This document shows, in pieces, positions 7,981 to 47,295 of a stretch of DNA of 64,000 nucleotides. Origin of the DNA: Pelomonas sp. Root1237 (GTDB taxonomy: Bacteria > Pseudomonadota > Gammaproteobacteria > Burkholderiales > Burkholderiaceae_C). The notes below the pieces were generated by a model. That model saw only the letters and a program-made list of their open reading frames with translations. It was not told where the DNA came from and searched no databases. A program made the translations under genes and the position numbers. The stretch is from NCBI RefSeq assembly GCF_001425055.1, contig NZ_LMDK01000019.1, forward strand, positions 372,001-436,000, given 5' to 3'. Positions within the stretch are counted from its first letter, which is position 1, and every line of letters starts with the position of its first letter.

Positions 7981-8057
7981 TGGTGGCGCTTCAGGGACTC
8001 GAACCCCGGACCTGTGGATTATGATTCCATCGCTCTAACCAACTGAGCTAAAGCGCC
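7981..8057 (-). tRNA. tRNA-Met (anticodon CAT)
   Basis: The minus-strand sequence folds as a complete cloverleaf. The acceptor stem is GGCGCTT/AAGCGCC, and the D arm is GCTCAGTTGGTTAGAGC. The anticodon loop ATCATAA has CAT at the anticodon, the T arm is CGGGGTTCGAGTCCCTG, and CCA is encoded at 7981-7983. The D-loop and acceptor fit elongator tRNA-Met better than initiator. A tRNA-Ile2 (lysidine-modified CAT) cannot be fully excluded by eye but is less likely. The accessory patch (about 4950-7920) lies at its 3' side, a common integration position. Confidence 0.92.
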
Positions 8058-14849: not shown

Positions 14850-16682
14850 ATGAGTCTTCTGCGCCATCTCCTCGTCTGCTGCCTGTTGTTGGCCAGCGTT
14901 GCGCAAGCCCAGCCCAGGCAGATGGAGAGGCTTGATCGCGGCGTCGTTGCGTTGACGACTTCGTCCGGCGTGTTCGTCAGCTGGCGCCTGTTGGGCACGG
15001 AGCCAGCCGGGGTGCGTTTCAATGTCTACCGCGATGGCAAGCGCATCAACCACGAGCCGCAGGCGCTGACCAACCTGGTGGACGCGCAAGGCCGCAGCGA
15101 CAGCCTCTACACCGTGCGCGCCGTTGTGGGCGGCCAGGAGCAGCCCGCGTCCACCGCCACCGCGCCGTGGAGCCAGCCCTATCTGCGTGTGCCGCTGCAA
15201 AAGCCCGAAGGCGGCGTGACGCCCGACGGCGTGGCCTACCGCTACGAGGCCAACGACGGCGCGGCGGCCGACCTGGATGGCGATGGCCAATACGAGCTGA
15301 TCGTGAAGTGGCAGCCCACCAACGCCCACGACAACTCGCACAAGGGCCATACCGGCCACACGCTGCTGGACGCCTACAAGCTCGACGGCACGCGGCTGTG
15401 GCGCATCGACCTCGGTCAGAACATCCGTGCCGGCGCCCACTACACCAGCTTCCTCGCCTACGACTTCGATGGTGACGGCAAGGCCGAGCTCATGATGAAG
15501 ACGGCCGATGGCGCGGTGGATGGTGCGGGCAAGGTGATTGGCGACGCCAAGGCCGATTACCGCAACGAGGCGGGCTATGTGCTGGCCGGCCCCGAGTTCC
15601 TGACCGTGTTCAACGGCTTGACCGGCGCTGCCATGGCCACTGCGGACTACACACCGCCACGCGGTGACGTGGCCGCCTGGGGCGATGCCTACGGCAATCG
15701 CGTCGACCGCTTCCTGGCCGGCGTGGCCTACCTGGATGGCCAGCGCCCCAGCGCGGTGTTTTCGCGCGGCTACTACACCCGCGCCGTGCTGGCCGCCTGG
15801 GACTGGCGCGATGGCAAGCTGACCCAGCGGTGGGTGTTCGACAGCGACGCGGATGCTGCGAGCAAGCCCGCTGCGGGCCAGGGCGCGCATTGGTTCTCGG
15901 TGGCCGACGTCAACGGCGACGGCCTGGATGACATCATCTACGGCGCTGCCACCATCTCTGGCACCGGCAAGCTGCTTTACAGCACCAGCCTGTGCCACGG
16001 CGACGCGCTGCACGTCAGCGCCTTCGACCCGGCGCGCGAGGGCCAGCAAGTTTTCATGGTTCACGAGACTCCGCGCTGCTACGGCGAGCACGGCCTGGAG
16101 ATGCACGACGCGGCCACGGGCAAGCTGCTGTGGAGCATGTCCGGCAAGAACACCGACGTCGGCCGCGGCGTCTGCTTCGACATCGACCCAGCCTATCCCG
16201 GCGCCGAATGCTGGGGCTCCGTCGGCGGCCTGATGAGCGCGGGCGGCAAGCTCATCAGCGAGCAGCACCCCAACCGCTACAACTTCGCCGTCTGGTGGGA
16301 TGGCGACCTGCTGCGCGAGTCGCTGGACCACGTCGCCATCGACAAGTGGAACCCTGCCAGCGTCAAGTTCGAGAACGTGCTGAACGGCAAGAAGTTTGGT
16401 GCGGCGTCCAACAACGGCACCAAGGGCAACCCGGTGTTGTCGGCCGACTTGTTCGGCGACTGGCGCGAGGAAGTCGTCTGGCGCAACGAGGACAGCACGG
16501 CCCTGCTGGTCTTCTCGACGGCCGTGCCGACTGAGCACCGCCTCGTCACGCTGATGCACGACCCGCAATACCGCGTGCAGGTGGCCGCGCAGAACGCCGG
16601 CTACAACCAGCCGCCGCACACCAGCTTCCACCTCGGCCACGGGATGAAGCCGCCGCGCTACCTGCCCATCACCACGCCATGA
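14850..16682 (+). CDS. Rhamnogalacturonan lyase, PL11
   Basis: PL11 enzymes cleave the alpha-1,4 bond between rhamnose and galacturonate in the RG-I backbone by beta-elimination, using bound calcium. The 610-residue protein starts MSLLRHLLVCCLLLASVAQA (Sec signal). A fibronectin-like N-terminal part (FVSWRLLGTEPAGVRFNVYR) precedes an eight-bladed propeller. The family's calcium loops are visible: AADLDGDGQYELIVKW, YDFDGDGKAELMMKTADG, VADVNGDGLDDIIYGA and LFGDWREEVVW. Length matches YesW/YesX-type lyases; endo versus exo action cannot be told by eye. ATG 14850 follows the terminator of the receptor gene by 10 bp. The stop overlaps the next start (ATGA at 16679). Confidence 0.95.
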   Translation: MSLLRHLLVCCLLLASVAQAQPRQMERLDRGVVALTTSSGVFVSWRLLGTEPAGVRFNVYRDGKRINHEPQALTNLVDAQGRSDSLYTVRAVVGGQEQPASTATAPWSQPYLRVPLQKPEGGVTPDGVAYRYEANDGAAADLDGDGQYELIVKWQPTNAHDNSHKGHTGHTLLDAYKLDGTRLWRIDLGQNIRAGAHYTSFLAYDFDGDGKAELMMKTADGAVDGAGKVIGDAKADYRNEAGYVLAGPEFLTVFNGLTGAAMATADYTPPRGDVAAWGDAYGNRVDRFLAGVAYLDGQRPSAVFSRGYYTRAVLAAWDWRDGKLTQRWVFDSDADAASKPAAGQGAHWFSVADVNGDGLDDIIYGAATISGTGKLLYSTSLCHGDALHVSAFDPAREGQQVFMVHETPRCYGEHGLEMHDAATGKLLWSMSGKNTDVGRGVCFDIDPAYPGAECWGSVGGLMSAGGKLISEQHPNRYNFAVWWDGDLLRESLDHVAIDKWNPASVKFENVLNGKKFGAASNNGTKGNPVLSADLFGDWREEVVWRNEDSTALLVFSTAVPTEHRLVTLMHDPQYRVQVAAQNAGYNQPPHTSFHLGHGMKPPRYLPITTP

Positions 16683-17665
16683 GGCTGGTCGCGCTGTTGC
16701 TTGTTGCGCTGGCCGGCTGCGTCAGCATGGAACCTGCGCCGCGGCCGCTCTACCGCGACCCGGTGCTGGACGGCGCGGCCGACGTGTCGCTCGTCTTCAA
16801 CCGCGGCCTGAAGCGCTGGGAGATGTTCTACACCAACCGCCGCGCGACGCTGCGGCTGGACGACCCCAAGGACGTGACCTGGGTGCACGCCACGCCCATC
16901 GGCATCGCGACGACGGACGACGGCAACCGCTGGCGCGCGTCGGGCGAGGCGAAGTTCCCTGCCGAGTGCACCGGCGCCACGCTGTGGGCGCCCGAGATCC
17001 AGGACTTCGACGACGTGTACCACCTGTGGCTCACCATCGTGCCCGGCGTGCACAAGAGCTGGACGGGCGAGCGGCGCATCGAGCACCTCACCAGCACGGA
17101 CCTGCGCAACTGGACCTGCGCCGGCAAGGCGGAGCTGGGCTCGCCCAAGGTCATCGACGCATCCGTCATCCGCGCGCCGCAGGGCGGCTGGCGCATGTGG
17201 TTCAAGGACGAGCAGGCCGGCAGCAAGCTCACGGTGGCTGACAGCCCCGACATGAAGACGTGGACCGTGCGCGGCCCGGTCAGCCCGCTGCCCGGTGAAG
17301 GGCCGACGGTGTTCCAGTTCGCCGGCAAATGGTGGCTGGTTGCCGACCTGTGGAAGGGGCTGCTGGTGCTGCGCTCCGACGACGCCGAGCACTGGCAGGA
17401 GCAGCCCACGCGACTGCTGGCCGGCATCGGCGAGCACCCCACCGACCGCGCCAAGGGTCAGCACCCGGGCGTCACCGTTGTCGACGGCCGGGCTTACCTC
17501 TTCTACTTCACGCACCAGAGCGGCGAGCCTGAAGCGAAGGCCGACGACCGCTGGCACCAGCGCACCGTCATCCAGGTCGCGGAGATGAAGCTGCAGGACG
17601 GCTGGCTGACCGTGGACCGCAACGCGCCACCGCCGGACCTGCGTTCCGCATTCAAGGCGCGGTGA
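16679..17665 (+). CDS. GH43-like lipoprotein
   Basis: This 328-residue protein begins MRLVALLLVALAGCVSM, a lipoprotein signal with lipobox LAGC (Cys14), so it is probably anchored in the outer membrane. The body is a five-bladed-propeller type glycosidase fold (WEMFYTNRRATLRL; ATLWAPEIQDFDDVYHLWLT; DASVIRAPQGGWRMWFKDE; GEGPTVFQFAGKWWLV). Candidate catalytic acids sit in RDPVLDG (Asp27 region), DASVIRAP and GEGPTVF, the GH43/GH117-like pattern. Exact family and substrate are uncertain; removal of arabinose or galactose side chains is likely from context. It overlaps PL11 by 4 bp, so both are cotranslated. Confidence 0.72.
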   Translation: MRLVALLLVALAGCVSMEPAPRPLYRDPVLDGAADVSLVFNRGLKRWEMFYTNRRATLRLDDPKDVTWVHATPIGIATTDDGNRWRASGEAKFPAECTGATLWAPEIQDFDDVYHLWLTIVPGVHKSWTGERRIEHLTSTDLRNWTCAGKAELGSPKVIDASVIRAPQGGWRMWFKDEQAGSKLTVADSPDMKTWTVRGPVSPLPGEGPTVFQFAGKWWLVADLWKGLLVLRSDDAEHWQEQPTRLLAGIGEHPTDRAKGQHPGVTVVDGRAYLFYFTHQSGEPEAKADDRWHQRTVIQVAEMKLQDGWLTVDRNAPPPDLRSAFKAR

Positions 17666-17675
17666 AAGGCCATTC

Positions 17676-17752
17676 ATGAACACAGCCACCGAGGCACAGA
17701 GGCACGGAGGCAGACGCACTTTCTCTGTGCCTCTGTGGCTCTGTGGCTGTGT
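17676..17752 (+). repeat. Palindromic dispersed repeat, copy 1, encoding a signal peptide
   Basis: The left arm (17680-17710) and right arm (17722-17752) are imperfect inverted repeats, ACACAGCCACCGAGGCACAG... against its complement ...CTCTGTGGCTGTGT, with about 11 nt between. ATG sits directly at the left edge. Read in frame the left arm gives NTATEAQRHGG and the right arm SVPLWLCGCV. A second copy lies at 42815-42906 on the other strand. The unit looks like a small mobile or REP-type hairpin element. Confidence 0.85.
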
Positions 17753-20153
17753 CCTGTTCTTTGCGGGAACTGTCCATGCGGCGCTGGACGTCTCGACTCA
17801 TGCCACGCCTACCAGCCTGCCGCTGGATGGCGCCGTCATCGTTGGCAGCGCGAACGCTGATCCGCTGGAAGCATTCGTTGCGCAAGACCTGGCGGAAGAC
17901 TTCAAGCGCCTCGGCTTGCGGACTGGCAACAAGGGCGCCGTGCAGATCTGGGTCGGCACGGCCGGCCGGCATGCGCAGATTGACGCCGCCGGCCTCGACC
18001 TCAGCAAGCTCAAGAGTTGCTGGGAATGTTTCCAGATTGCGCTGCTGCGCGACCCCGCGCCCGGCGTGAAGCAGGCACTCGTCATCGCCGGCGCCGACCG
18101 CCGCGGCACCGCCTACGGCGTCTACACGCTGAGCCAGGCGCTGGGCGTGTCGCCCTGGCATTGGTGGGCGGACGTCGCGCCGCTCAAGCGCGGGCCATTG
18201 CATGTCAGCCTGACTGAGCCACTGCACGACGGTCCCGCCGTGAAATACCGCGGCCTCTTCATCAACGACGAGGACTGGGGCCTCTTCCCCTGGGCCTCTC
18301 GCACCTTCGAGCCCGAGGCCCGCACGATTGGCCCGCGCACCTACGAGCAGGTCTTCCGCCTGCTGCTGCGCCTGAAGGCCAACACGCTGTGGCCGGCCAT
18401 GCACCAAGTCTCGGGCGCCTTCAACGCCGATCCGCGCAATGCCGAGCTCGCGCAGCGCTATGGCATCGTCATGGGCTCATCCCACGCGGAGCCGATGCTG
18501 CGCAACAACGTCGCCGAGTGGAAGGCGCCGGCCGAGCAGTACAACTACGCAACCCATCCCGAACAGGTGCGCGACTACTGGGCCGAGCGGCTGAAGACGA
18601 ATGGCCGCTTCGACAACCTCTACACGCTGGGCATGCGCGGCATCCACGACTCTGGCATGCAGGGCGGCGGCACGGTGGCCGAGAAGCAGGCGCTGCTGAA
18701 CCGCTTGCTGGCCGACCAACGAGAGCTGCTGGCAAAGCGCGTAGGCGACCCGGTGACGCTGCCCCAGGTCTTCGTGCCCTACAAGGAAGTGCTGCCTTTG
18801 CTGCCCGGGCTGGCCCTGCCCGACGACGTGACGCTGGTCTGGCCCGACGACAACTTCGGTTACCTCCGCCAGTTCCCCGACGCGGAGCAGACCAAGCGCT
18901 CAGGCGGCTCGGGCGTGTACTACCACCTGAGTTATCTCGGCGCGCCGCTGTCCTATCTGTGGCTGTCCACCACGCCGCCCGCACTCGTCGCCGAAGAAAT
19001 GGGCCGCGCCTTCGATGCCGGCGCGCAGCGGCTGTGGATCGCCAACGCCGGCGACATCAAGCCGCACGAGGTCAACCTCAGCCACTGGTTCGACCTGGCC
19101 TGGAACCCGGCCGCCGTGCGGGCGCAGGGCCAGCAGGCCTACCTTCGTGAGCTGGCGCAGCGGCTCTTCGGCGTTGCTGGCATCGCCGCCGAGATCGCCG
19201 CGATTTGGGACGGCTACTACCGCCTCAACTTCGAGCGCCGCCCCGAGCATCTGCAATATCACCTGCCCGGTGAACGCGTGAAGCGCAGTGGCCTGGCGCC
19301 GGCCGTCATCGACGAGCGCCTGGATCGCTTCGCCCAGCTGCTTGCCCGCCTGGACGCCGTGCGCCCTCGGATCGCCGCCGCGCAGCGCGACGGTTTCTTC
19401 CAACTGGTCGAATACCCGCTGCGCGCTTCGGCCCTGGCCAACGAGCGCTTCTTCGCGTTGGAGCGCTACGCGGCGACGATGGAGCGCGATCCCGCTGGTG
19501 CCCGCCGCTTCGCCGCCCAGGCCGTGCGCGCCGATCAGCGCCTCAAGGCCTTGACCGCGCGCTGCAACGGCGGCCGCTGGGCCGGCATCCTGGCCGAGGA
19601 ACCGGCCGATGGCCTTTGGACCAGCTACCGCCAGCAGGCGCCGTTGCTACCGGCCGCCGGATTGGGTGGCAGCACGGCCGATGCGCTGAGCGACATCGCG
19701 AAAGCCGCTGCCGACCTCGCACCCGTGGCCACGGCCGCTGCAGCGCCACCCGCGCTGCGTGTGACCGCCTCGCAGGGCTGGCGCCTCATCCCCGGCCTCG
19801 GTCGCGGCGACGGCGTGCTCGCCGCACAGCAGCCCGGCTCGACCTTGGCGCTGCAAGCCCAGGCACCCGCCGGCGCCAGCTGCCTGCGCGTCTACGTGCT
19901 CCCCACCTACCCGTTGACCGCAGGCGAGCCCTGGCAGGCTGATGTGGTCGTCGACGGCCAGACCCACCCATTGCGCTGGCCGCGCGGCGTGCAGGACGCC
20001 GCCTGGGGTCAGGGCGTGCTGGCCAATCGACTGAGCGCATCCCTGAGCCTGCCAGAGCGCGCCGCCGGAACGCTGCGGCTGCAACTGGCGGCCGGCCAGC
20101 GCGACCTGATGTTCGATGGTGCCGAACTGCTGCCCGGTGCCTGCCGCTCCTGA
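17676..20153 (+). CDS. Alpha-glucuronidase-like protein, GH115
   Basis: GH115 enzymes release (4-O-methyl) glucuronic acid from xylan or, in some members, from arabinogalactan. The 825-residue sequence has the typical N-terminal module (VIAGADRRGTAYGVYTLSQ), the GLFINDEDWGLFPWASRTFE segment, LKANTLWPAMHQVSGAFN, and the central acidic motifs (LVWPDDNFGYLRQFPDAEQ; YHLSYLGAPLSYLWLSTTPP; LWIANAGDIKPHEV). In an RG-I locus, glucuronate on arabinogalactan side chains is the likelier target (inference). The N-terminus is unusual: the start codon and signal peptide (n-region MNTATEAQRHGGRR, hydrophobic SVPLWLCGCVLFF, cleavage after TVHA) are encoded by a palindromic repeat that also occurs at 42815-42902. 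Confidence 0.88.
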   Translation: MNTATEAQRHGGRRTFSVPLWLCGCVLFFAGTVHAALDVSTHATPTSLPLDGAVIVGSANADPLEAFVAQDLAEDFKRLGLRTGNKGAVQIWVGTAGRHAQIDAAGLDLSKLKSCWECFQIALLRDPAPGVKQALVIAGADRRGTAYGVYTLSQALGVSPWHWWADVAPLKRGPLHVSLTEPLHDGPAVKYRGLFINDEDWGLFPWASRTFEPEARTIGPRTYEQVFRLLLRLKANTLWPAMHQVSGAFNADPRNAELAQRYGIVMGSSHAEPMLRNNVAEWKAPAEQYNYATHPEQVRDYWAERLKTNGRFDNLYTLGMRGIHDSGMQGGGTVAEKQALLNRLLADQRELLAKRVGDPVTLPQVFVPYKEVLPLLPGLALPDDVTLVWPDDNFGYLRQFPDAEQTKRSGGSGVYYHLSYLGAPLSYLWLSTTPPALVAEEMGRAFDAGAQRLWIANAGDIKPHEVNLSHWFDLAWNPAAVRAQGQQAYLRELAQRLFGVAGIAAEIAAIWDGYYRLNFERRPEHLQYHLPGERVKRSGLAPAVIDERLDRFAQLLARLDAVRPRIAAAQRDGFFQLVEYPLRASALANERFFALERYAATMERDPAGARRFAAQAVRADQRLKALTARCNGGRWAGILAEEPADGLWTSYRQQAPLLPAAGLGGSTADALSDIAKAAADLAPVATAAAAPPALRVTASQGWRLIPGLGRGDGVLAAQQPGSTLALQAQAPAGASCLRVYVLPTYPLTAGEPWQADVVVDGQTHPLRWPRGVQDAAWGQGVLANRLSASLSLPERAAGTLRLQLAAGQRDLMFDGAELLPGACRS

Positions 20154-40369: not shown

Positions 40370-41623
40370 TCACTTCATCAGCGCCTGGTAGGTCAGCGTG
40401 CGCACGCGCAGATGCAGCGTCGAATTTCCCGCGGGCCGCAGCTGCGTCATGAAGAGGATGACGAGGCGCTCCTTCGGGTCCACCGTGTACTGCGGGAAAT
40501 AGGCGCTGCCCCAGCCGAAAGCGCCTTCGCTGCCCAGTTCCTTGAAGCCGCCGCGTTTCACGTTGACCCAGAAGCCCAGCCCGAAGCCATCGGCATCGCC
40601 GCCGGATTTGGAACCGAGATGGTCGGCCGTCATCAGCGCCACGGTGTGGGGCGCGAGGATGCGCACGCCATCCAGCTCGCCCTTGTTCAGCAGCATCTGC
40701 AGGAAGCGCGTGTAGTCGCCCGCGGTGCTCAGCATGCCGGCGCCGCCGGACAGCAGCTTGCGCGGGCCGTTGACGAAGTCGCTCTTCGCAGACGTTTCCA
40801 TCAGCTTGAGCTGACCGCCTTCCAGCCCGTAGACATTGGCGAGGCGTTCGACCTTGTCAGCGGGCAGGAAGAAGCTCGTGTCCGGCATGCGCAGCGGGTC
40901 GGTGATGCGCTCCTTGATGAAGCGGTCCAGCGGCTGGCCGGAAACGACCTCGACGAGGCGGCCCAACACGTCGGTGGCGTAGCCGTAGATGAATTGCTCA
41001 CCCGGTTGGCTCTGCAGCGGCAGCGCGGCGAAGCGGGCGGTCCACTGTGCCAACGTCTCGTCGTTGCCGACGAGGTACCAGTCCTTCATGCCAGCAGCGC
41101 TGTAGGCGGCCTGGGTCGGGCCGCCGCCGTAGCTCATGCCGGCCGTGTGCGTCAGCAGGTCGTGGATGGTCAACGGGCGGCGCGGCTTCTCGGTGCCGCC
41201 TTGGGCCAAGGCGACCTGCATGTGGGCGAAGGCCGGCAGATAGCGCGCCACCGGGTCCTTCAGCAGGAAGCGGCCTTCCTCGTAAAGGATCATCGCCGCC
41301 ACCGTCGTCAGCGCCTTGGTCATGGAGGCGATGCGGAAGATCGTGTCCGTGCGCATCGGCCTGGCGTTCTCGATGTCGCGCTGGCCATAGGCCTTGAAGA
41401 CGACCGGCTTGCCATCGCGCAGCACGGCCATCACGCCGCCGGCGAGCTGCTGTTTGCCGATCTGCTCCTCGATGGCTGCGTCGAGCCGCTGCAGGCGTTC
41501 CGGCGAGAAGCCCTGTACGTTGACCGCGGCGGCCTTGGGCGGTGCGGCCGAGGTCGCCGGGGCGTGGATCAGCGCGGCGCAGGCCAGCGCCAGGGCGGCA
41601 AGGGGGGTTCTCATTCGGCTCAA
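40370..41623 (-). CDS. Serine hydrolase of the beta-lactamase class C/esterase family
   Basis: This 417-residue exported protein (signal ending at APATSAAP) has the serine beta-lactamase-like fold. The nucleophile motif SMTK is in FRIASMTKALTTVA (about residue 97). A Tyr motif is in QFIYGYATDVLGRLVEVVSG (about 210). A GWG segment near the C-terminus is in GAFGWGSAYFPQY. Members of this group are often esterases or peptidases rather than lactamases. Inside a pectin locus a role as carbohydrate or feruloyl-type esterase is plausible but unproven. ATG 41623 overlaps the CE12 stop; ATG 41614 is an alternative. Confidence 0.85.
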   Translation of the reverse strand: MSRMRTPLAALALACAALIHAPATSAAPPKAAAVNVQGFSPERLQRLDAAIEEQIGKQQLAGGVMAVLRDGKPVVFKAYGQRDIENARPMRTDTIFRIASMTKALTTVAAMILYEEGRFLLKDPVARYLPAFAHMQVALAQGGTEKPRRPLTIHDLLTHTAGMSYGGGPTQAAYSAAGMKDWYLVGNDETLAQWTARFAALPLQSQPGEQFIYGYATDVLGRLVEVVSGQPLDRFIKERITDPLRMPDTSFFLPADKVERLANVYGLEGGQLKLMETSAKSDFVNGPRKLLSGGAGMLSTAGDYTRFLQMLLNKGELDGVRILAPHTVALMTADHLGSKSGGDADGFGLGFWVNVKRGGFKELGSEGAFGWGSAYFPQYTVDPKERLVILFMTQLRPAGNSTLHLRVRTLTYQALMK

Positions 41624-42918
41624 TCGCCCAGGGGGCGTTGCTGGGTGAAGCCCGGGCTCGCTGCAACGTGGAACTGCTCCGGCGGCAGCGGCCTGGCGGG
41701 GTCAATGGCGCCAAGATCATCGCGCAGCTGTGCGGCCACCGGCACACGGGCTTCCCGCAAACCCAGGGCCACCAAACGCGCCAACTGCATGGCGCCGTAG
41801 TTGTTGTGGTGGGTGTTGTCGAGCTTGCCGTTGTTCATCGGATGGGCGGCCTGGGAGCGCTCGGGGCCGAGGGCCGCGTAGAACTGCTGGCTCATCGCGT
41901 TGAGATCGATGAAGGCCAGCTTCATGTCCTGCGCGACCGCGCGCGCCGCGTCGGCGTACTCGGTCAGGCTGGGCCTGAGCTTTCCCTCGGGGTCGAAGTT
42001 GCGCCTCTCCATCGACGACACGACGACCGGCACGCCGCCTCGCGCCAGGATGCGCTCGGCATGGGTGCACAGCTCGGCCTTGTAGGTCTGGGCGTTGCCG
42101 CTGCCGTCCTTCTGTTGTTTCTGGTCGTTGTGGCCGAATTGCAGCAGCACGGTGTCGCCCGGTTGCATGACGGACAGGATCTTGTCGATGCGCCGGCGTG
42201 CCAGCGAGTCGCGGAAGGTTTCGCCCGACTGCGCATGGTTGGCCACGGCCACGGTGGGCTTGAACAGGGCCGTCAGCATCTGGCCCCAGCTGCTGTAGGG
42301 CTCGCGGGACTGATCGGCCACCGTGGAGTCGCCCAGCAGGAAGACGGTGGGCACCCTGACGGGCTCGATGACGAGACTGCGCAGCGCCGGCTGGCTGCCG
42401 TTGATCTCCAGCGTCAGGCGCTGGTCCCAGGCCCAGATCTCATCCTTGCTTTCGCGCGGTTCCTTGAGCTTGACGACGCCTGCTTCCACACCCGGCACGG
42501 CGGCGATGCGGGCGGTGCGCACGTTGACGATGAAGCTGCGCGTTTCAGTTGCACCGGCAGCCACCCCCACGCTGTCCAGCATCAGCCGACGCAGCTCGGC
42601 TTTGATGGTCGTGTTGCTGGCGGCGGCGGCGCCGAGCGTCGCGGTGACGCGGTAGTTGCCTTCCGCGGGCACGTCCACCGTGAAGAAGCTCGGCTGGCCG
42701 GCGGCATTGAGCGCGGCGCCGGGCTCGAAGCCGGCGCCGCGGTCACGGCTGTAGGTGGGCGCGGGCGTCGTGGTGAAGTCGAAGCTGAGCGGTTCGGCCG
42801 CGCGTGGCTGGGAAACACAGCCACTGAGGCACAGAGACACAGAGAAGAGCATGGAGAGAAAGGGCAGATTTCCTCTGTGCCTCTGTGTCTCTGTGGCTGT
42901 GTTCATCGATGTGGTCAT
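41620..42918 (-). CDS. Rhamnogalacturonan acetylesterase, CE12, repeat-derived lipoprotein signal
   Basis: The 432-residue protein has an N-terminal beta-rich domain (residues 40-180; SFDFTTTPAPTYSRDRGAGF). Then comes an SGNH esterase domain: VFLLGDSTVADQSREPYSSW, VANHAQSGETFRDSL, LLQFGHNDQKQQKDGSG, and the Asp/His block KLDNTHHNNYGAMQLA. CE12 enzymes deacetylate RG-I galacturonate. The N-terminus MTTSMNTATETQRHRGNLPF then FSVSLCLSGCVSQ carries a lipobox LSGC, so it is probably a lipoprotein. This segment is encoded by the palindromic repeat also found at the GH115 gene. It lies 1 bp after the PL26 stop. Confidence 0.9.
   Translation of the reverse strand: MTTSMNTATETQRHRGNLPFLSMLFSVSLCLSGCVSQPRAAEPLSFDFTTTPAPTYSRDRGAGFEPGAALNAAGQPSFFTVDVPAEGNYRVTATLGAAAASNTTIKAELRRLMLDSVGVAAGATETRSFIVNVRTARIAAVPGVEAGVVKLKEPRESKDEIWAWDQRLTLEINGSQPALRSLVIEPVRVPTVFLLGDSTVADQSREPYSSWGQMLTALFKPTVAVANHAQSGETFRDSLARRRIDKILSVMQPGDTVLLQFGHNDQKQQKDGSGNAQTYKAELCTHAERILARGGVPVVVSSMERRNFDPEGKLRPSLTEYADAARAVAQDMKLAFIDLNAMSQQFYAALGPERSQAAHPMNNGKLDNTHHNNYGAMQLARLVALGLREARVPVAAQLRDDLGAIDPARPLPPEQFHVAASPGFTQQRPLGD
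42815..42906 (-). repeat. Palindromic dispersed repeat, copy 2, encoding a lipoprotein signal
   Basis: Arms at 42815-42844 and 42873-42902 are imperfect inverted repeats of about 30 nt, with the same core as copy 1 (ACACAGCCAC...; ...GTGGCTGTGT) and a 28-nt spacer. ATG (42906) sits at the outer edge as in copy 1. Read in frame on the minus strand it encodes NTATETQRHRG, then SVSLCLSGCV. The spacer length and sequence differ from copy 1, so the arms are the conserved part. Confidence 0.85.
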
Positions 42919-42919
42919 G

Positions 42920-45646
42920 TCAGTCAGTGAGCTGGTCGCCGATCAGGGCCAGGTTCTGGATGGCGGCCAGTCCCCACTGCGCGGTGTCATTGGTGCTGAT
43001 CCAGGGCGCTTCGTCCACCGGGTTCAGCGCCAGCGGGCCGGCGATGCGCGTGGTCTTCAGCGTCTTGTGGCCGCGCGGATCGTCGGCCAGGAACTCGCGC
43101 CAGGCGCGCTGGGCCAGGGCCTTGTCCTGCTTGCTCTTGGCCGCGTAGGCGCTCAGACGCGAATGGCCCACGCTCAGCACCGTGCCGCCGCCGTGCGGCG
43201 CGCCCAGCGCCTTGACCTGCTGGTCGCGCGGCGCGTTGTAGAGCTCGCAATACTGCAGCCAGGCCTGCTTGAACTCGGGCTCATCGATCAGCTCCACCAG
43301 TTCGGCCATCATCTCCACAGCACCAAAGACGGCGCTCAGGTGGCTGGCGCTGAGCTTGTCGCCGCTGACGTTGTGAAAGGCGCCTTCGTTCGGCCCCGTG
43401 GGCTCGTAGCCACCGCTGCCGGTGAAGAAGCCGTGGGGCATGGCGGCGATGCCCTGCATGCCGCGCAGCAGCTTGTTGCGCCAGCGCACATCGCCGGTGC
43501 GCTCCCACTCGGTCAGCACGTTGGCGACGACCGAGCCCCAGTCCGTGCCGAAGCCGATGCGCGCCGGCCAGGGGCCCTTGTCCACGCGGCCGGCGATCTT
43601 GCGCACGGGGTCGACCTCATCCATCTTGGTGTCGGCGCTGAGCACCTCGCGCATGACGTCGCCGATGCGCTCGTCGGCCGTCAGGTAGTAGTAGAAGCGG
43701 CGGTAGGCCGCCGTGGAGATGCGCGCCTGCTTGGCGCTGCAGCCCCAGTGCTGCACGTTGTGGCGCGTGCCCAGGCCCTGGAAGCGGCCGGCGTGATAGA
43801 TGTCGACCTCGCTGGTGTGGCGCACCATGGCCTCGGCGAAGCGGAAGATGTCGGCGCGGCCACTGCGTAGATAGGCATACCAGAGCCAGAGGTCGGGTGA
43901 CAGCTCCGAGTTGTCCCAGGCGAAGCCGCCGACGTCGTAGCGCCATTCGTGGCGATCACTGTCGTAGGTGTGGCGGATGTCGCCGTAGTCCCAGAAACCG
44001 TACCAATGGCGCTGCTCGACCTCCTTCTTGTAGAAGTCGAACAGGAAGTCCAGCTTGTCCTCGATCTTCTGGCGCGCCGGCGTGCTGCGGTCGGGCAGGC
44101 TCCACAGCTTGCCGAACACGCCGGCCGCCAGATAACGCTGCGGTGATGCGGCGAGCTGCGGCGGTGCCTGCACTGCGGCGGCCATCTGCACCAGGCGTTC
44201 GCGCGTGGGCGTGGCGGCCAGCGCCCACAGCGTGATCTCGCTGCTGCGCGCGATGCCCACCGGCGTGCCGAAGCCCTTCTCGTAGTCCTCGTAGGTCATC
44301 TCCAGGCCCTCGAGCTCCTGCTCGTGGGTCTCCTGCCCCAGGCCATCGTGATAGAAGCGCAGGTCCATGGCCGGCGCCTCGGGCGAGTGCATCCACAGCG
44401 TCACTTGCGCGGCGTCGGTGTGGGCATTGCGGATGTCCAGTTGCGTCGGGTGGCGCTGCCAGAAGTCGCGCAGGCCAAAGGCCACGCCGCCGGTGGCGCC
44501 GCCGATATAGCCGCTGCCTGGCGCCCGCTTGCCGAAGGCGGCGGGAATCCAGCCATGGCCGGCCTTGGTGCGCTTCTTGATCTGGAAGCCATCGGCACTG
44601 AGCTGGCTCAAGGAGTAGTCGCCCCAGGCGGGGATGCGATGTTGCAGCTGGCGCACCTGCGTGCCCCATTGCGCTACCGGCGGCGTGGCGCGGCCGGCCA
44701 GCTGGGCCTCACGCACGACAGCACCCGGGTCGCGGCGCAGCCCGGTCAGGTTGCGCACGCCCTCGGCCCACAGGCCACCGGATTCGCCGGCAAAGCGCAC
44801 ATGACGGTCGTAGAGGGCGTCGCGCAGCGGCACGTCGAAGCGCAGGCCGATACCGCGCAGGAAGTCCTTCTGATCGTCGCCATCGAAGACGAAGGTGTGC
44901 ATGACGCGCAGCGATTCGGCGCCGGCGTAGAAATAGAAGCGCACCGAGAAGGGCAGCCATTCGCGGCCGGCGGCGCTGCGGTGTTGGCCGTCGACCTTGA
45001 TGACGGCGCGCACCGGGCCGGTCTGCTCGACGGTCAGTTTTGCGATGCGGCTCTGGAAGGCGGTCTGCGTGACGGCGCCCTGCTCGGCATCGGGCTTGTC
45101 GTCGGTCTGGGCGATGAGGGTGCAGGAACCCAGCACCTCGCGGCCGTCGCGCTCGATGCCCTGGATGAGCTTGGCGCCCTGGCGTGGCAGCCTGCAGCGG
45201 ATGACGCCGTTGTCGACCTCGATGAAGTCAGCCTCCTCGCGCACCTTCACGGTGGCACCTGCGGCGGCAGCACCCTTGCCCGGGCGGATGCTGGGCTGGG
45301 CACCGGCATCGACGCCGGCTGGCAGCGCATGCGCCGTCCACTTCAGCGAGCCATCGGGCCACCAGGCCAGCGGCCAGGTCTGCAAGGCCAGTGGCTTGCC
45401 CTGCGCGTCCAGCGCGTGGAAGGCCTGATCCTTCCTGTGCTGGCCGCGCGGCCAGGGCAGACCCAACGTGGCGCCGAGCGCCAGCGCGGGGGCGGTGCCA
45501 TCCAGCCAGCGCAAGCCGAGCAGGTCGTCCGACGTGGCGACGGTCGGTGCGGGCGCCGATGCAGCACCGGCGGTGGTGGCCAAGCCGGTCAGACCCAGAG
45601 GCAGGGACGCGGTCTTGAAGAAGTTGCGGCGGCTGAAGTCGGTCAT
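42920..45646 (-). CDS. Exo-rhamnogalacturonan lyase-like protein, PL26, Tat exported
   Basis: This 908-residue protein starts MTDFSRRNFFKTASLPLGLT, a strong twin-arginine signal. Its body matches the PcRGLX-type lyase layout. An N-terminal beta domain has TWPLAWWPDGSLKWTAHALP and DFIEVDNGVIRCRLPRQGAK. A middle domain has YAGAESLRVMHTFVFDGDDQ. A C-terminal alpha/alpha barrel has DYGDIRHTYDSDRHEWRYDV, AWDNSELSPDLWLWYAYLRS, HVQHWGCSAKQARIS-like and GDKLSASHLSAVFG. PL26 releases unsaturated GalA-Rha disaccharide units from RG-I ends. ATG 45646 overlaps the transporter stop. The family assignment is by recognition and could be confirmed by profile search. Confidence 0.85.
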   Translation of the reverse strand: MTDFSRRNFFKTASLPLGLTGLATTAGAASAPAPTVATSDDLLGLRWLDGTAPALALGATLGLPWPRGQHRKDQAFHALDAQGKPLALQTWPLAWWPDGSLKWTAHALPAGVDAGAQPSIRPGKGAAAAGATVKVREEADFIEVDNGVIRCRLPRQGAKLIQGIERDGREVLGSCTLIAQTDDKPDAEQGAVTQTAFQSRIAKLTVEQTGPVRAVIKVDGQHRSAAGREWLPFSVRFYFYAGAESLRVMHTFVFDGDDQKDFLRGIGLRFDVPLRDALYDRHVRFAGESGGLWAEGVRNLTGLRRDPGAVVREAQLAGRATPPVAQWGTQVRQLQHRIPAWGDYSLSQLSADGFQIKKRTKAGHGWIPAAFGKRAPGSGYIGGATGGVAFGLRDFWQRHPTQLDIRNAHTDAAQVTLWMHSPEAPAMDLRFYHDGLGQETHEQELEGLEMTYEDYEKGFGTPVGIARSSEITLWALAATPTRERLVQMAAAVQAPPQLAASPQRYLAAGVFGKLWSLPDRSTPARQKIEDKLDFLFDFYKKEVEQRHWYGFWDYGDIRHTYDSDRHEWRYDVGGFAWDNSELSPDLWLWYAYLRSGRADIFRFAEAMVRHTSEVDIYHAGRFQGLGTRHNVQHWGCSAKQARISTAAYRRFYYYLTADERIGDVMREVLSADTKMDEVDPVRKIAGRVDKGPWPARIGFGTDWGSVVANVLTEWERTGDVRWRNKLLRGMQGIAAMPHGFFTGSGGYEPTGPNEGAFHNVSGDKLSASHLSAVFGAVEMMAELVELIDEPEFKQAWLQYCELYNAPRDQQVKALGAPHGGGTVLSVGHSRLSAYAAKSKQDKALAQRAWREFLADDPRGHKTLKTTRIAGPLALNPVDEAPWISTNDTAQWGLAAIQNLALIGDQLTD

Positions 45647-47295
45647 GGGCGGGCTTGCAGAGGTTGCAGCGAGGAGTCGGCGGCGTGGCCGCTGCCGCGG
45701 CCCCACAGGCGGTCGTAAGGCCAGCCGGTCAGGTCTTCGACGATGCGGCGGCTGTCATCGGTCTCGGCTTCGGTCGCACCGCTGCGCAGGCGCTCGACCT
45801 CGTTGACGAGGACGGCATGCGTGCTGGCATTGAGGCGGAAGGTCCAGGAGGCGATCAGGCCGAACAGCATCATCAAGAGGGGCCCGCCCACCATCAGCCC
45901 GGTGATGGTCTGGATGGCCTCGGGGCTTTGCACGATGACCTCGCCGGGGCGGCTCTTGGGCGAGATGTAGCCGCCCAGGTCGATGATCCAGCCGCTGGCG
46001 ATGATGGCCGCGCTCTGGGCCATCTTGCGCACCAACGTCATCACGCCGGCAAAGATGCCCTCGCGGCGTTGGCCGGTGACGGCCTCGTCGATGTCGGGCA
46101 GGTAGTTGTAGACCGACCAGGGCACGAAGTTCAGCGTGCCGCGGCCCAGGCCCGCGAGGACGATGGGCGCGAAGATCCAGAACACCAGGCTGAAGCTGCC
46201 GCTTGCCGGGTTCAGCGCGGTGAAGAGGTTGGTGCCCAGCGCCTTGAAGCCGGCGTCGAAGCCCTCGGGTCGCACCAGGAAGAAGCCCAGGTACAGCAAC
46301 AGCGCTGCGCCGAACAGGGAGATCGCCAGGCGGTAGGCCAGCACGGGCCCGGTGCGGATGACGATCTGGATGGCCACCATCACCGAGATGAGCTGGGCCA
46401 CGTACATGACCGTCATCAGCTGCGAGATGACAAGGGTGGCGCCCATCAGCACCGTGGCCACGAAGATGGGGAAGGCAGTGTTGAAGATGTCCTGTGACAG
46501 ATAGCCGCCCAGGTAGATGGACAGGTGCTGGCGGAAGGCGCGGATCTTCAGCGTCGAGAACAGGTCGCCGAACATCTTGAGCGGCAGGGCCAGTGCGGCC
46601 TTCAGCGTCACGCCGCCATAGGTCTGCGACATGACCGCCTGCGCGCGCGTGCCGTAGGGGCGCTCCCACGTCGTCAACACGACGATCGTCACGACGACCG
46701 AGAAGATGCAGCCAAAGATGGCCGCCATCCAGAAGAAGGTGTCGGGCGAGTCCTTGCCGCCGAACTGGCTGATGAGCAGCGTGGGCAGGTAGGAGGCCAG
46801 GATGGCCGAGCTTTGCGCGACGATCATGCGGGCGCCGGCGAACTTGGCCTTGCGCTTGTAGTCCTTGGTCATCTCGGCCGCCAGCGTTTCCCAGGGGATG
46901 AGAAACATCGTGTACAGCAGCTCGAAGAAGATGAAGGCGAACAGGTAGTAGTAGAAGGTGTGGCCGGCGCGGAAGATCAGCGCGAAGCTGGGCAGCAGCG
47001 GGATGGTGATCAGCAGGAAGAGCTTGCGCCGGCCAATCTTGCGGCCCACCCAGGTGTGGCGCAGGTTGTCGGAGACGTAGCCGATGAGGGGGCAGGTGAT
47101 GGCTTCGAGCAGTCTCGGGAGGCCGAGGATCAGTCCCGCGTCGACGGCGCTGAGGCCGCAGAAGGTGGTGAAGAAATAGAACAGCCAGCCGGTGATGACG
47201 GCCTGGGCGCCGGCGCCCAGCATGTCGCCGCTGCCCCAGCCCCAGTAGTTGATCCAGGTGGGCTCTTTGGCGGCGGGGTGAAGGTTCTTCTGCAT
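45643..47295 (-). CDS. GPH-family sugar:cation symporter (MFS)
   Basis: A 550-residue inner-membrane transporter with about twelve hydrophobic helices (INYWGWGSGDMLGAGAQAVI; RKLFLLITIPLLPSFALIFR; YLFAFIFFELLYTMFLIPWE; VVTIVVLTTWE). The GPH/melibiose-type signature region RDNLRHTWVGRKIGRRK-like appears as SDNLRHTWVGRKIGRRKLF. It lies between the PL26 and GH105 genes, so it most likely carries the unsaturated rhamnogalacturonan disaccharide or short oligomers into the cytoplasm with a cation (inference). The last 50 residues form a hydrophilic tail. It is 3 bp downstream of GH105 and overlaps PL26 by 4 bp. Confidence 0.9.
   Translation of the reverse strand: MQKNLHPAAKEPTWINYWGWGSGDMLGAGAQAVITGWLFYFFTTFCGLSAVDAGLILGLPRLLEAITCPLIGYVSDNLRHTWVGRKIGRRKLFLLITIPLLPSFALIFRAGHTFYYYLFAFIFFELLYTMFLIPWETLAAEMTKDYKRKAKFAGARMIVAQSSAILASYLPTLLISQFGGKDSPDTFFWMAAIFGCIFSVVVTIVVLTTWERPYGTRAQAVMSQTYGGVTLKAALALPLKMFGDLFSTLKIRAFRQHLSIYLGGYLSQDIFNTAFPIFVATVLMGATLVISQLMTVMYVAQLISVMVAIQIVIRTGPVLAYRLAISLFGAALLLYLGFFLVRPEGFDAGFKALGTNLFTALNPASGSFSLVFWIFAPIVLAGLGRGTLNFVPWSVYNYLPDIDEAVTGQRREGIFAGVMTLVRKMAQSAAIIASGWIIDLGGYISPKSRPGEVIVQSPEAIQTITGLMVGGPLLMMLFGLIASWTFRLNASTHAVLVNEVERLRSGATEAETDDSRRIVEDLTGWPYDRLWGRGSGHAADSSLQPLQARP

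Follow-up and report, generated by a model that had tools for sequence, protein, structure and literature searches.

A REP-like palindromic element of Roseateles/Pelomonas has probably overwritten the front of pre-existing signal peptides, including that of a GH115 enzyme

The window analysed here is a stretch of 64,000 nt of Pelomonas sp. Root1237 (NZ_LMDK01000019.1, positions 372,001-436,000), taken from a genome of 6.43 Mb that we refer to as G000. It holds two copies of a palindromic element, both situated amid genes for polysaccharide enzymes (14742-45706; GH43-like, GH115, GDSL and PcRGLX) that probably constitute one or more utilisation operons. The features at the two loci are as follows.

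16679-17665, + strand: GH43-like upstream co-directional gene (E 1.4e-5, below the Pfam cut-off), ending in TGA at 17663-17665
17676-20153, + strand: GH115 gene of 825 aa (PF15979, E 1.5e-118)
17676-17678, + strand: ATG of the GH115 gene, at the edge of the element, with the upstream TGA 10 nt before it
17680-17709, + strand: left arm, encoding the polar n-region NTATEAQRHGG
17710-17722, + strand: loop of the element
17723-17752, + strand: right arm, encoding the hydrophobic core SVPLWLCGCV
17753-17780, + strand: signal-peptide end LFFAGTVHA, similar to the c-region found in orthologues that lack the element (e.g. LALAGAAHA)
41620-42918, - strand: GDSL-1 gene (PF13472; GDSL lipase), with a putative signal peptide and lipobox encoded by the second copy
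42814-42903, - strand: second copy, lying in frame within the GDSL gene
42920-45706, - strand: PcRGLX gene, the upstream neighbour, with its TGA one base before the ATG at 42918

The preliminary description of this DNA had proposed that a palindromic repeat supplies the first codons of the GH115 gene, with the ATG at its edge, a polar stretch from the left arm and a hydrophobic core from the right arm, and the arms and their translation bear this out. The arms are 30 nt each, 90% complementary and spaced 13 nt. For the RNA of 17676-17756 a folding energy of -57.3 kcal/mol was computed (z -8.76), which none of 200 shuffles equalled. Residues 2-26, which make up most of the putative signal peptide, are encoded by the element, and the N-terminus as derived from the sequence reads MNTATEAQRHGGRRTFSVPLWLCGCVLFFAGTVHA, followed by ALDV. 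Relatives of the enzyme in the PDB align only from about residue 90 and are therefore uninformative on the signal peptide. For the second copy, the arms (42814-42844 and 42873-42903) are 31 nt long, 90% complementary and 28 nt apart, and the minus-strand RNA of 42812-42918 folds at -53.2 kcal/mol (z -7.16; 0 of 200 shuffles as good). The same description had this copy start an unrelated enzyme at 42906; a copy is indeed present in the GDSL gene, but the gene lies on the minus strand and its likely start is 42918. The ATG at 42906 stands at the edge of the copy, and we assigned the start to 42918 because that in-frame ATG directly follows the PcRGLX stop (TGA-C-ATG); the N-terminus is then likely MTTSMNTATETQRHRGNLPFLSMLFSVSLCLSGCVSQ, with the putative lipobox LSGC.

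The element, whose host genus is Roseateles/Pelomonas, is mostly 58-122 bp in size and built from 8-nt CACAGAGR units, and G000 contains 19 copies. In a collection of 84,980 species genomes, from which the genome of the window itself was possibly left out, there were 17 stretches with the exact variant that has ATG at its edge. They belong to five organisms, namely Roseateles caseinilyticus P7, R. puraquae, Pelomonas sp. Root1217 and two bins from metagenomes that bear the labels Methylotenera sp. and Burkholderiales bacterium. An arm pattern allowing at most 3 mismatches was matched in 13 of 20 genomes of the genus, with 0 to 342 arm hits per genome and no match at all in the other 7; control patterns gave 0 matches in nearly all genomes. 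At the level of the family (150 genomes, drawn evenly), strict paired copies were confined to G000 and to G013, a member of another genus. The latter carries three strict copies of a related element (L050, L052 and L054), two of which are identical over the matched stretch and lie 2.5 kb apart. We also found a second subtype, with arms AATGCAACC / AAGGCAACC, at loci of G151, G155 and G156; its arm includes an ATG (MQPQRH frame), and it is the type fused to the solute-binding protein of G156. The only match in the window above the Rfam gathering score was a tRNA gene (7984-8057, - strand), and a search of the literature text available for four 15-base strings of the element, or for TETQRHRE or TEAQRHRE, returned no publication.

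We examined 142 distinct copies from five genomes, namely 19 in G000, 65 in G158 (60 of at least 71 places; 342 arm hits in all), 43 in G151 (44 places from 100 of the 110 hits listed), 11 in G156 (12 places) and 4 in G164 (4 of 5 places, its GH115 copy being known from L087). With gene borders approximated by a codon-usage score trained on the window, 120 of the 142 copies lie between co-directional genes, 5 between convergent and 0 between divergent genes, the other 17 being unclassed. The spacer control for these figures comes from the 64-kb window only and from rough gene calls (4601 nt of tandem spacer, including one uncalled stretch of 3158 nt, against 1533 nt divergent and 147 nt convergent). 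No copy had the same coding frame on both sides (0/142), and by this test none lies inside a gene. Among 146 gene ends that face an element, the upstream stop codon is 5-20 nt away from it in 95 and more than 40 nt away in 14; the mode is 10 nt (21 ends).

Copies fused in frame to the 5' end of a gene follow the same placement rule: in the 19 fusions measured, the stop precedes the element by about 11-18 nt, or by 26 nt for FecR. In the fusions to an ABC solute-binding protein the next start overlaps the stop (ATGA), and the start follows the stop by 1-2 nt in both GDSL families, by 8-10 nt in GH115 and by 22 nt in FecR. Our inference is that the element reaches these sites through its placement near stop codons and not through any affinity for signal peptides, and that signal peptides tolerate it; the placement itself may reflect either insertion preference or survival after selection.

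The same placement also speaks for an element that acts mainly at the RNA level, as stop-proximal REPs do in E. coli (by stalling of ribosomes or inter-cistron mRNA processing), the copies in signal peptides then being side effects. The copies fold strongly, and the accessible text of PMC12306157, reporting Liang 2015, attributes a lowering of translation to E. coli REPs with less than 16 nt between them and a stop codon. In 7 of 20 genomes of the genus, however, the arms went unmatched even with 3 mismatches allowed, so the element is dispensable, and we consider a mainly regulatory role rather doubtful.

The overwriting of existing signal peptides, which we favour, draws on the coding properties of the arms. 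The consensus of the left arm (AACACAGCCACAGAGRCACAGAG...) is without T and that of the right arm without A, and since a stop codon needs both T and A, neither arm can hold one in any frame. In all three frames the left arm is polar (NTATEAQRHR, TQPQRHRDTE and HSHRGTETQ) and the right arm hydrophobic (LCVSVPLWLC, SVSLCLCGCV and LCLCASVAV), so that a simple property of the sequence yields a polar and then a hydrophobic stretch whatever the frame. When the best window of each right-arm frame is taken, the lowest hydropathy is 2.11; a value as high was obtained for 0.37% of 20,000 shuffled versions of the arm and for 0 of 20,000 random arms with 67% GC. The first left-arm frame is used by GH115, GDSL-1, FecR, GDSL-2 and a cytochrome c, and the second by the solute-binding protein. 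A bacterial Sec signal peptide has a basic n-region, a hydrophobic core and small residues before the cleavage site; the element-derived segments, assessed by hydropathy and by AXA-type ends read by eye, are putative cases of it. In the 20 element cores, the best 9-residue mean hydropathy ranges from 2.08 to 3.16 with an average of 2.46; this counts against the favoured explanation, as 36 native signal-peptide cores are stronger on average (2.75) and the element cores overlap the top of 598 mature-protein segments (95th percentile 2.43, 99th 2.57).

Should the annotated starts be wrong and translation instead begin at a GTG or ATG within the loop or the right arm, coding would be confined to the second half of the element. 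Candidate codons exist (GTG at 17727 inside the right arm in GH115, ATG at 42852 in the loop in GDSL-1), a crude codon-score gene caller picked both, the left arm encodes nothing hydrophobic, and from GTG 17727 the right arm would still give GH115 its hydrophobic core. Against this, the start, the left-arm frame and the length of the solute-binding protein are kept over five species, AAAGG stands 6 nt 5' of the GH115 ATG and no such motif precedes the GTG, and the GDSL-1 and solute-binding starts are coupled to the upstream stop. Internal starts thus appear unlikely to us, and a GH115 start beyond the whole repeat, which would have undone the original proposal, was not found either: no in-frame start codon occurs within 60 nt 3' of the element. 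Intergenic copies are likewise open in all frames, which may produce false N-terminal extensions in annotation.

In accordance with the expectation that in-frame 5' copies should exist elsewhere, and not solely non-coding ones, a search of the genome and its relatives detected the element inside the putative signal peptides of six protein families in one genus, 20 proteins in all. It is present in 2 of 9 orthologues of GH115, 7 of 19 of the ABC solute-binding protein (PF01547), 4 of 13 of GDSL-1, 2 of 7 of FecR (PF04773) and 4 of 13 of GDSL-2 (PF13472 and PF18559); the sixth family is represented by one cytochrome c (PF00034) in G151. Before counting, we dropped the GH115 rows L089-L106 (37-42% identity) and the fragments L107-L109, GDSL-1 L288 (33%), FecR L296-L298 (35-36%) and GDSL-2 L413-L419 (51-53%) plus two rows without loci. 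The GH115 orthologues in 8 other members of the genus share 77-87% identity; seven have their own short signal peptide (e.g. MRALLLGLWIGLAGAAQA, followed by GLNV), and that of G164 has a diverged element, MNTATEARRQREKSIGLSAVALCLFGLLLAFAGVAHA. The residues encoded by the element in G000 are not common to the element-free GH115 proteins. Over five families there are 42 element-free orthologues (GH115 7, solute-binding protein 12, GDSL-1 9, FecR 5 and GDSL-2 9), and all 42 have a signal peptide of their own as judged by eye, a few starting at GTG or being ambiguous by eye (e.g. the solute-binding protein of G165). In the aligned junctions, the native start lies on one side of the element and the last residues before the cleavage site on the other.

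These orthologues bear on the original suggestion, in which the palindrome serves as a ready-made export signal and makes exported proteins out of cytoplasmic ones. Its arms do encode an n-region and an h-region in every frame and it stands in frame at the start in six families, but the 42 element-free orthologues already have signal peptides and most copies are intergenic, so we judge it highly improbable. Existing signals seem to have been overwritten, and no cytoplasmic protein is seen becoming exported. As c-type cytochromes mature outside the cytoplasm, the cytochrome c also speaks against such a conversion. The element is not a general export device, since only 9 of the 142 copies are signal-peptide fusions (4 of 19 in G000, 3 of 43 in G151, 1 of 11 in G156 and 1 of 4 in G164). 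None was recognised among the 65 pattern-found copies of G158, whose degenerate signal-peptide copies (solute-binding protein and GDSL-1) lie outside that set. A chance inverted repeat beside an ATG, for which we found no supporting point, is refuted by the folding (z -8.8 and -7.2), by the 19 copies in the genome with many more in relatives and by control patterns that gave 0 in nearly all genomes.

The explanation that we prefer, with a probability of roughly 0.7 for the whole of it, is that the repeat at the GH115 start is one copy of a REP-like palindromic element of Roseateles/Pelomonas that overwrote the front of pre-existing signal peptides, GH115 being one such case; the positions, frames and orthologue states on which it builds are taken from the sequence. 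Copies separate co-directional genes, usually with 5-20 nt between them and the preceding stop codon; if this stop touches or overlaps the following start, the element would occupy the opening codons of the downstream gene and form part of its N-terminus. The genes in which insertions survive would be those that already specify a signal peptide, because the stop-free arms, polar or basic and then hydrophobic in every frame, could provide a usable n-region and h-region ahead of the native c-region; continued export and survival through the tolerance of signal peptides are presumed here. Stop-near placement would also explain why the N-terminus of the next gene of an operon is hit, and it makes the turnover of signal peptides by repeats directly testable. 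One point against is that the hairpin of -57 kcal/mol begins 4 nt after the AUG of GH115 and could hinder initiation. Per 120 nt, the folding energies of the 19 N-termini with a fusion range from -41 to -73 kcal/mol, and element-free start regions of the same GC-rich genes average -51.5 kcal/mol; the fusions are thus not set apart by total folding energy, but by one long stem beside the AUG.

In a tree of five mature genes, G000 and G151 are grouped with a support of 100, several deep nodes being weak (41-68). The carriers of the element in the solute-binding protein are G000 (not its sister G151), G156, G158 and the clade of G154, G161, G166 and G167 (support 100 for the four). Their junctions differ between G000, G156, and G158 with the four-genome clade, and the element of G156 is fairly intact and of the other subtype (arms AATGCAACC/AAGCCAACC), which we read as at least three putative insertion events. 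For the other families the distribution suggests two events in GH115 (G000 and G164), one each in FecR, GDSL-2 and cytochrome c and at least one in GDSL-1, so that the total would be about nine, with gene transfer as a possible alternative. The signal-peptide part of the solute-binding protein has one length (46 codons) and one frame in five species, with a dN/dS of 0.41; the corresponding value is 0.53 for GDSL-1 (three species) and 0.94 for GDSL-2 (four species), and the mature parts of the same genes have values of 0.10-0.19. The GDSL-2 value, which gives no sign of constraint beyond an open frame, again counts against the favoured explanation.

In the GDSL-1 family, the four carriers of the element have the candidate lipoboxes LSGC, LGGC, LSGC and LCGC, and such a motif is also found in two orthologues without the left arm (LGGC in G030 and LSGC in G157). 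Of the remaining seven orthologues, five have no lipobox match, and the matches in G150 (LIAC) and G163 (LAAC) lie very near the N-terminus. Likeness to the right arm scores 18 for G030 and 15 for G157 (P 0.002 and 0.019 under random codon choice) and at most 11 for the other 40 native signal peptides, so the signal peptides of these two, first counted as native among the 42, are probable right-arm relics. The base that distinguishes LCGC from LSGC and LGGC is seldom A or G rather than T (7 of 276 arms), and three of the seven are GDSL-1 copies; the FecR copy of G000 also has LSGC. Tentatively, and with some hesitation, the element might in GDSL-1 be seen as an evolvable signal-peptide cassette, by which an ancestral signal of the signal-peptidase-I type was replaced by an element-encoded lipobox signal, with LCGC refined to LSGC or LGGC, and a soluble enzyme became a lipoprotein.

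With respect to mobility, genes of the Y1_Tnp (RAYT) type were considered as mobiliser and rejected: they occur in all 20 genomes of the genus, element-free ones included, and no core match was found near them at 30 of at least 40 loci (flanks of up to 1.5 kb). No target-site duplication was detected, the mean longest shared flank word being 3.44, compared to 3.29 for shuffled pairs (maximum of 20 shuffles 3.54), nor was a flank consensus around the element. The GTAG/CGTC tag is absent, and the edges of 84 copies are AACACAGCC ends. An ATG is found at 14 of these 168 edges, by an estimate from counts about three times the expectation from base make-up. As an insertion target the ATG was nevertheless discarded, since only 3 of 26 loci with the ATG pattern (L200-L225) were recognised as real fusions (L202, L205 and L212). 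The base outside the AACACAG end is T in 0 of 168 edges in G000 and G158, and in 1 of 132 with slightly different edges.

A predicted repeat within a signal peptide is already known, namely the RU-2/YPAL repeat of Yersinia in YPO1552 (Delihas 2007, PMC2759123), which in the accessible text is a 168-bp element with one long frame and one main predicted case. The Roseateles element differs from it as an unrelated palindrome of 8-nt units that is found in six families of one genus, uses two reading frames and follows a stop-near placement rule. The Roseateles case adds the recurrence in six families of one genus, with element-free controls; the portions consulted of the literature on exaptation, Roseateles/Pelomonas repeats, the lipobox and RPE yielded no closer precedent. 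The RPEs of Rickettsia (PMC2229807, PMC10969869), the classic example of palindromes in frame, are, according to the text available, likewise palindromic and kept in frame in protein genes, comparable to the 20 in-frame proteins of six families across species described here. They are, however, found in many kinds of genes, whereas the in-frame Roseateles copies recognised are at the N-termini of exported-type proteins only, and insertion at interior sites of unrelated genes, typical of RPEs, was seen in none of the 142 copies by the same-frame test. REPs, as far as covered by the available parts of PMC3733652 and PMC12306157, also follow coding regions, in places where the adjoining genes are unidirectional or convergent; they often lie no more than about 15 nt from a stop codon, and some are at the N-termini of ORFs; the 120 tandem, 5 convergent and 0 divergent positions agree with this. 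Unlike REPs, the Roseateles element has no GTAG/CGTC tag, is longer (arms of about 30 nt) and has no tyrosine transposase gene nearby (30 loci). MITE-like traits are its shortness, the terminal inverted repeats (arms of 30 and 31 nt, 90% complementary) and a copy number that differs among related species, from zero to over a hundred; unlike in MITEs, no target-site duplication was detected and no cognate transposase identified, Y1_Tnp being the only candidate examined. The PARCEL repeats (PMC2996958) are also palindromic DNA coding in exported or membrane proteins, but in the text accessible they are tandem 25-residue domains and no signal peptide.

Some intergenic copies occupy corresponding positions in several species. 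The element was found upstream of folD in three of them (L039 in G000, L141 in G158 and L376 in G151), with differing loops or subtypes, and elements at the miaA (L043 and L168) and tssF (L037 and L196) junctions are likewise common to G000 and G158. Either these insertions are old and their sequence has drifted, or the same junctions were hit repeatedly.
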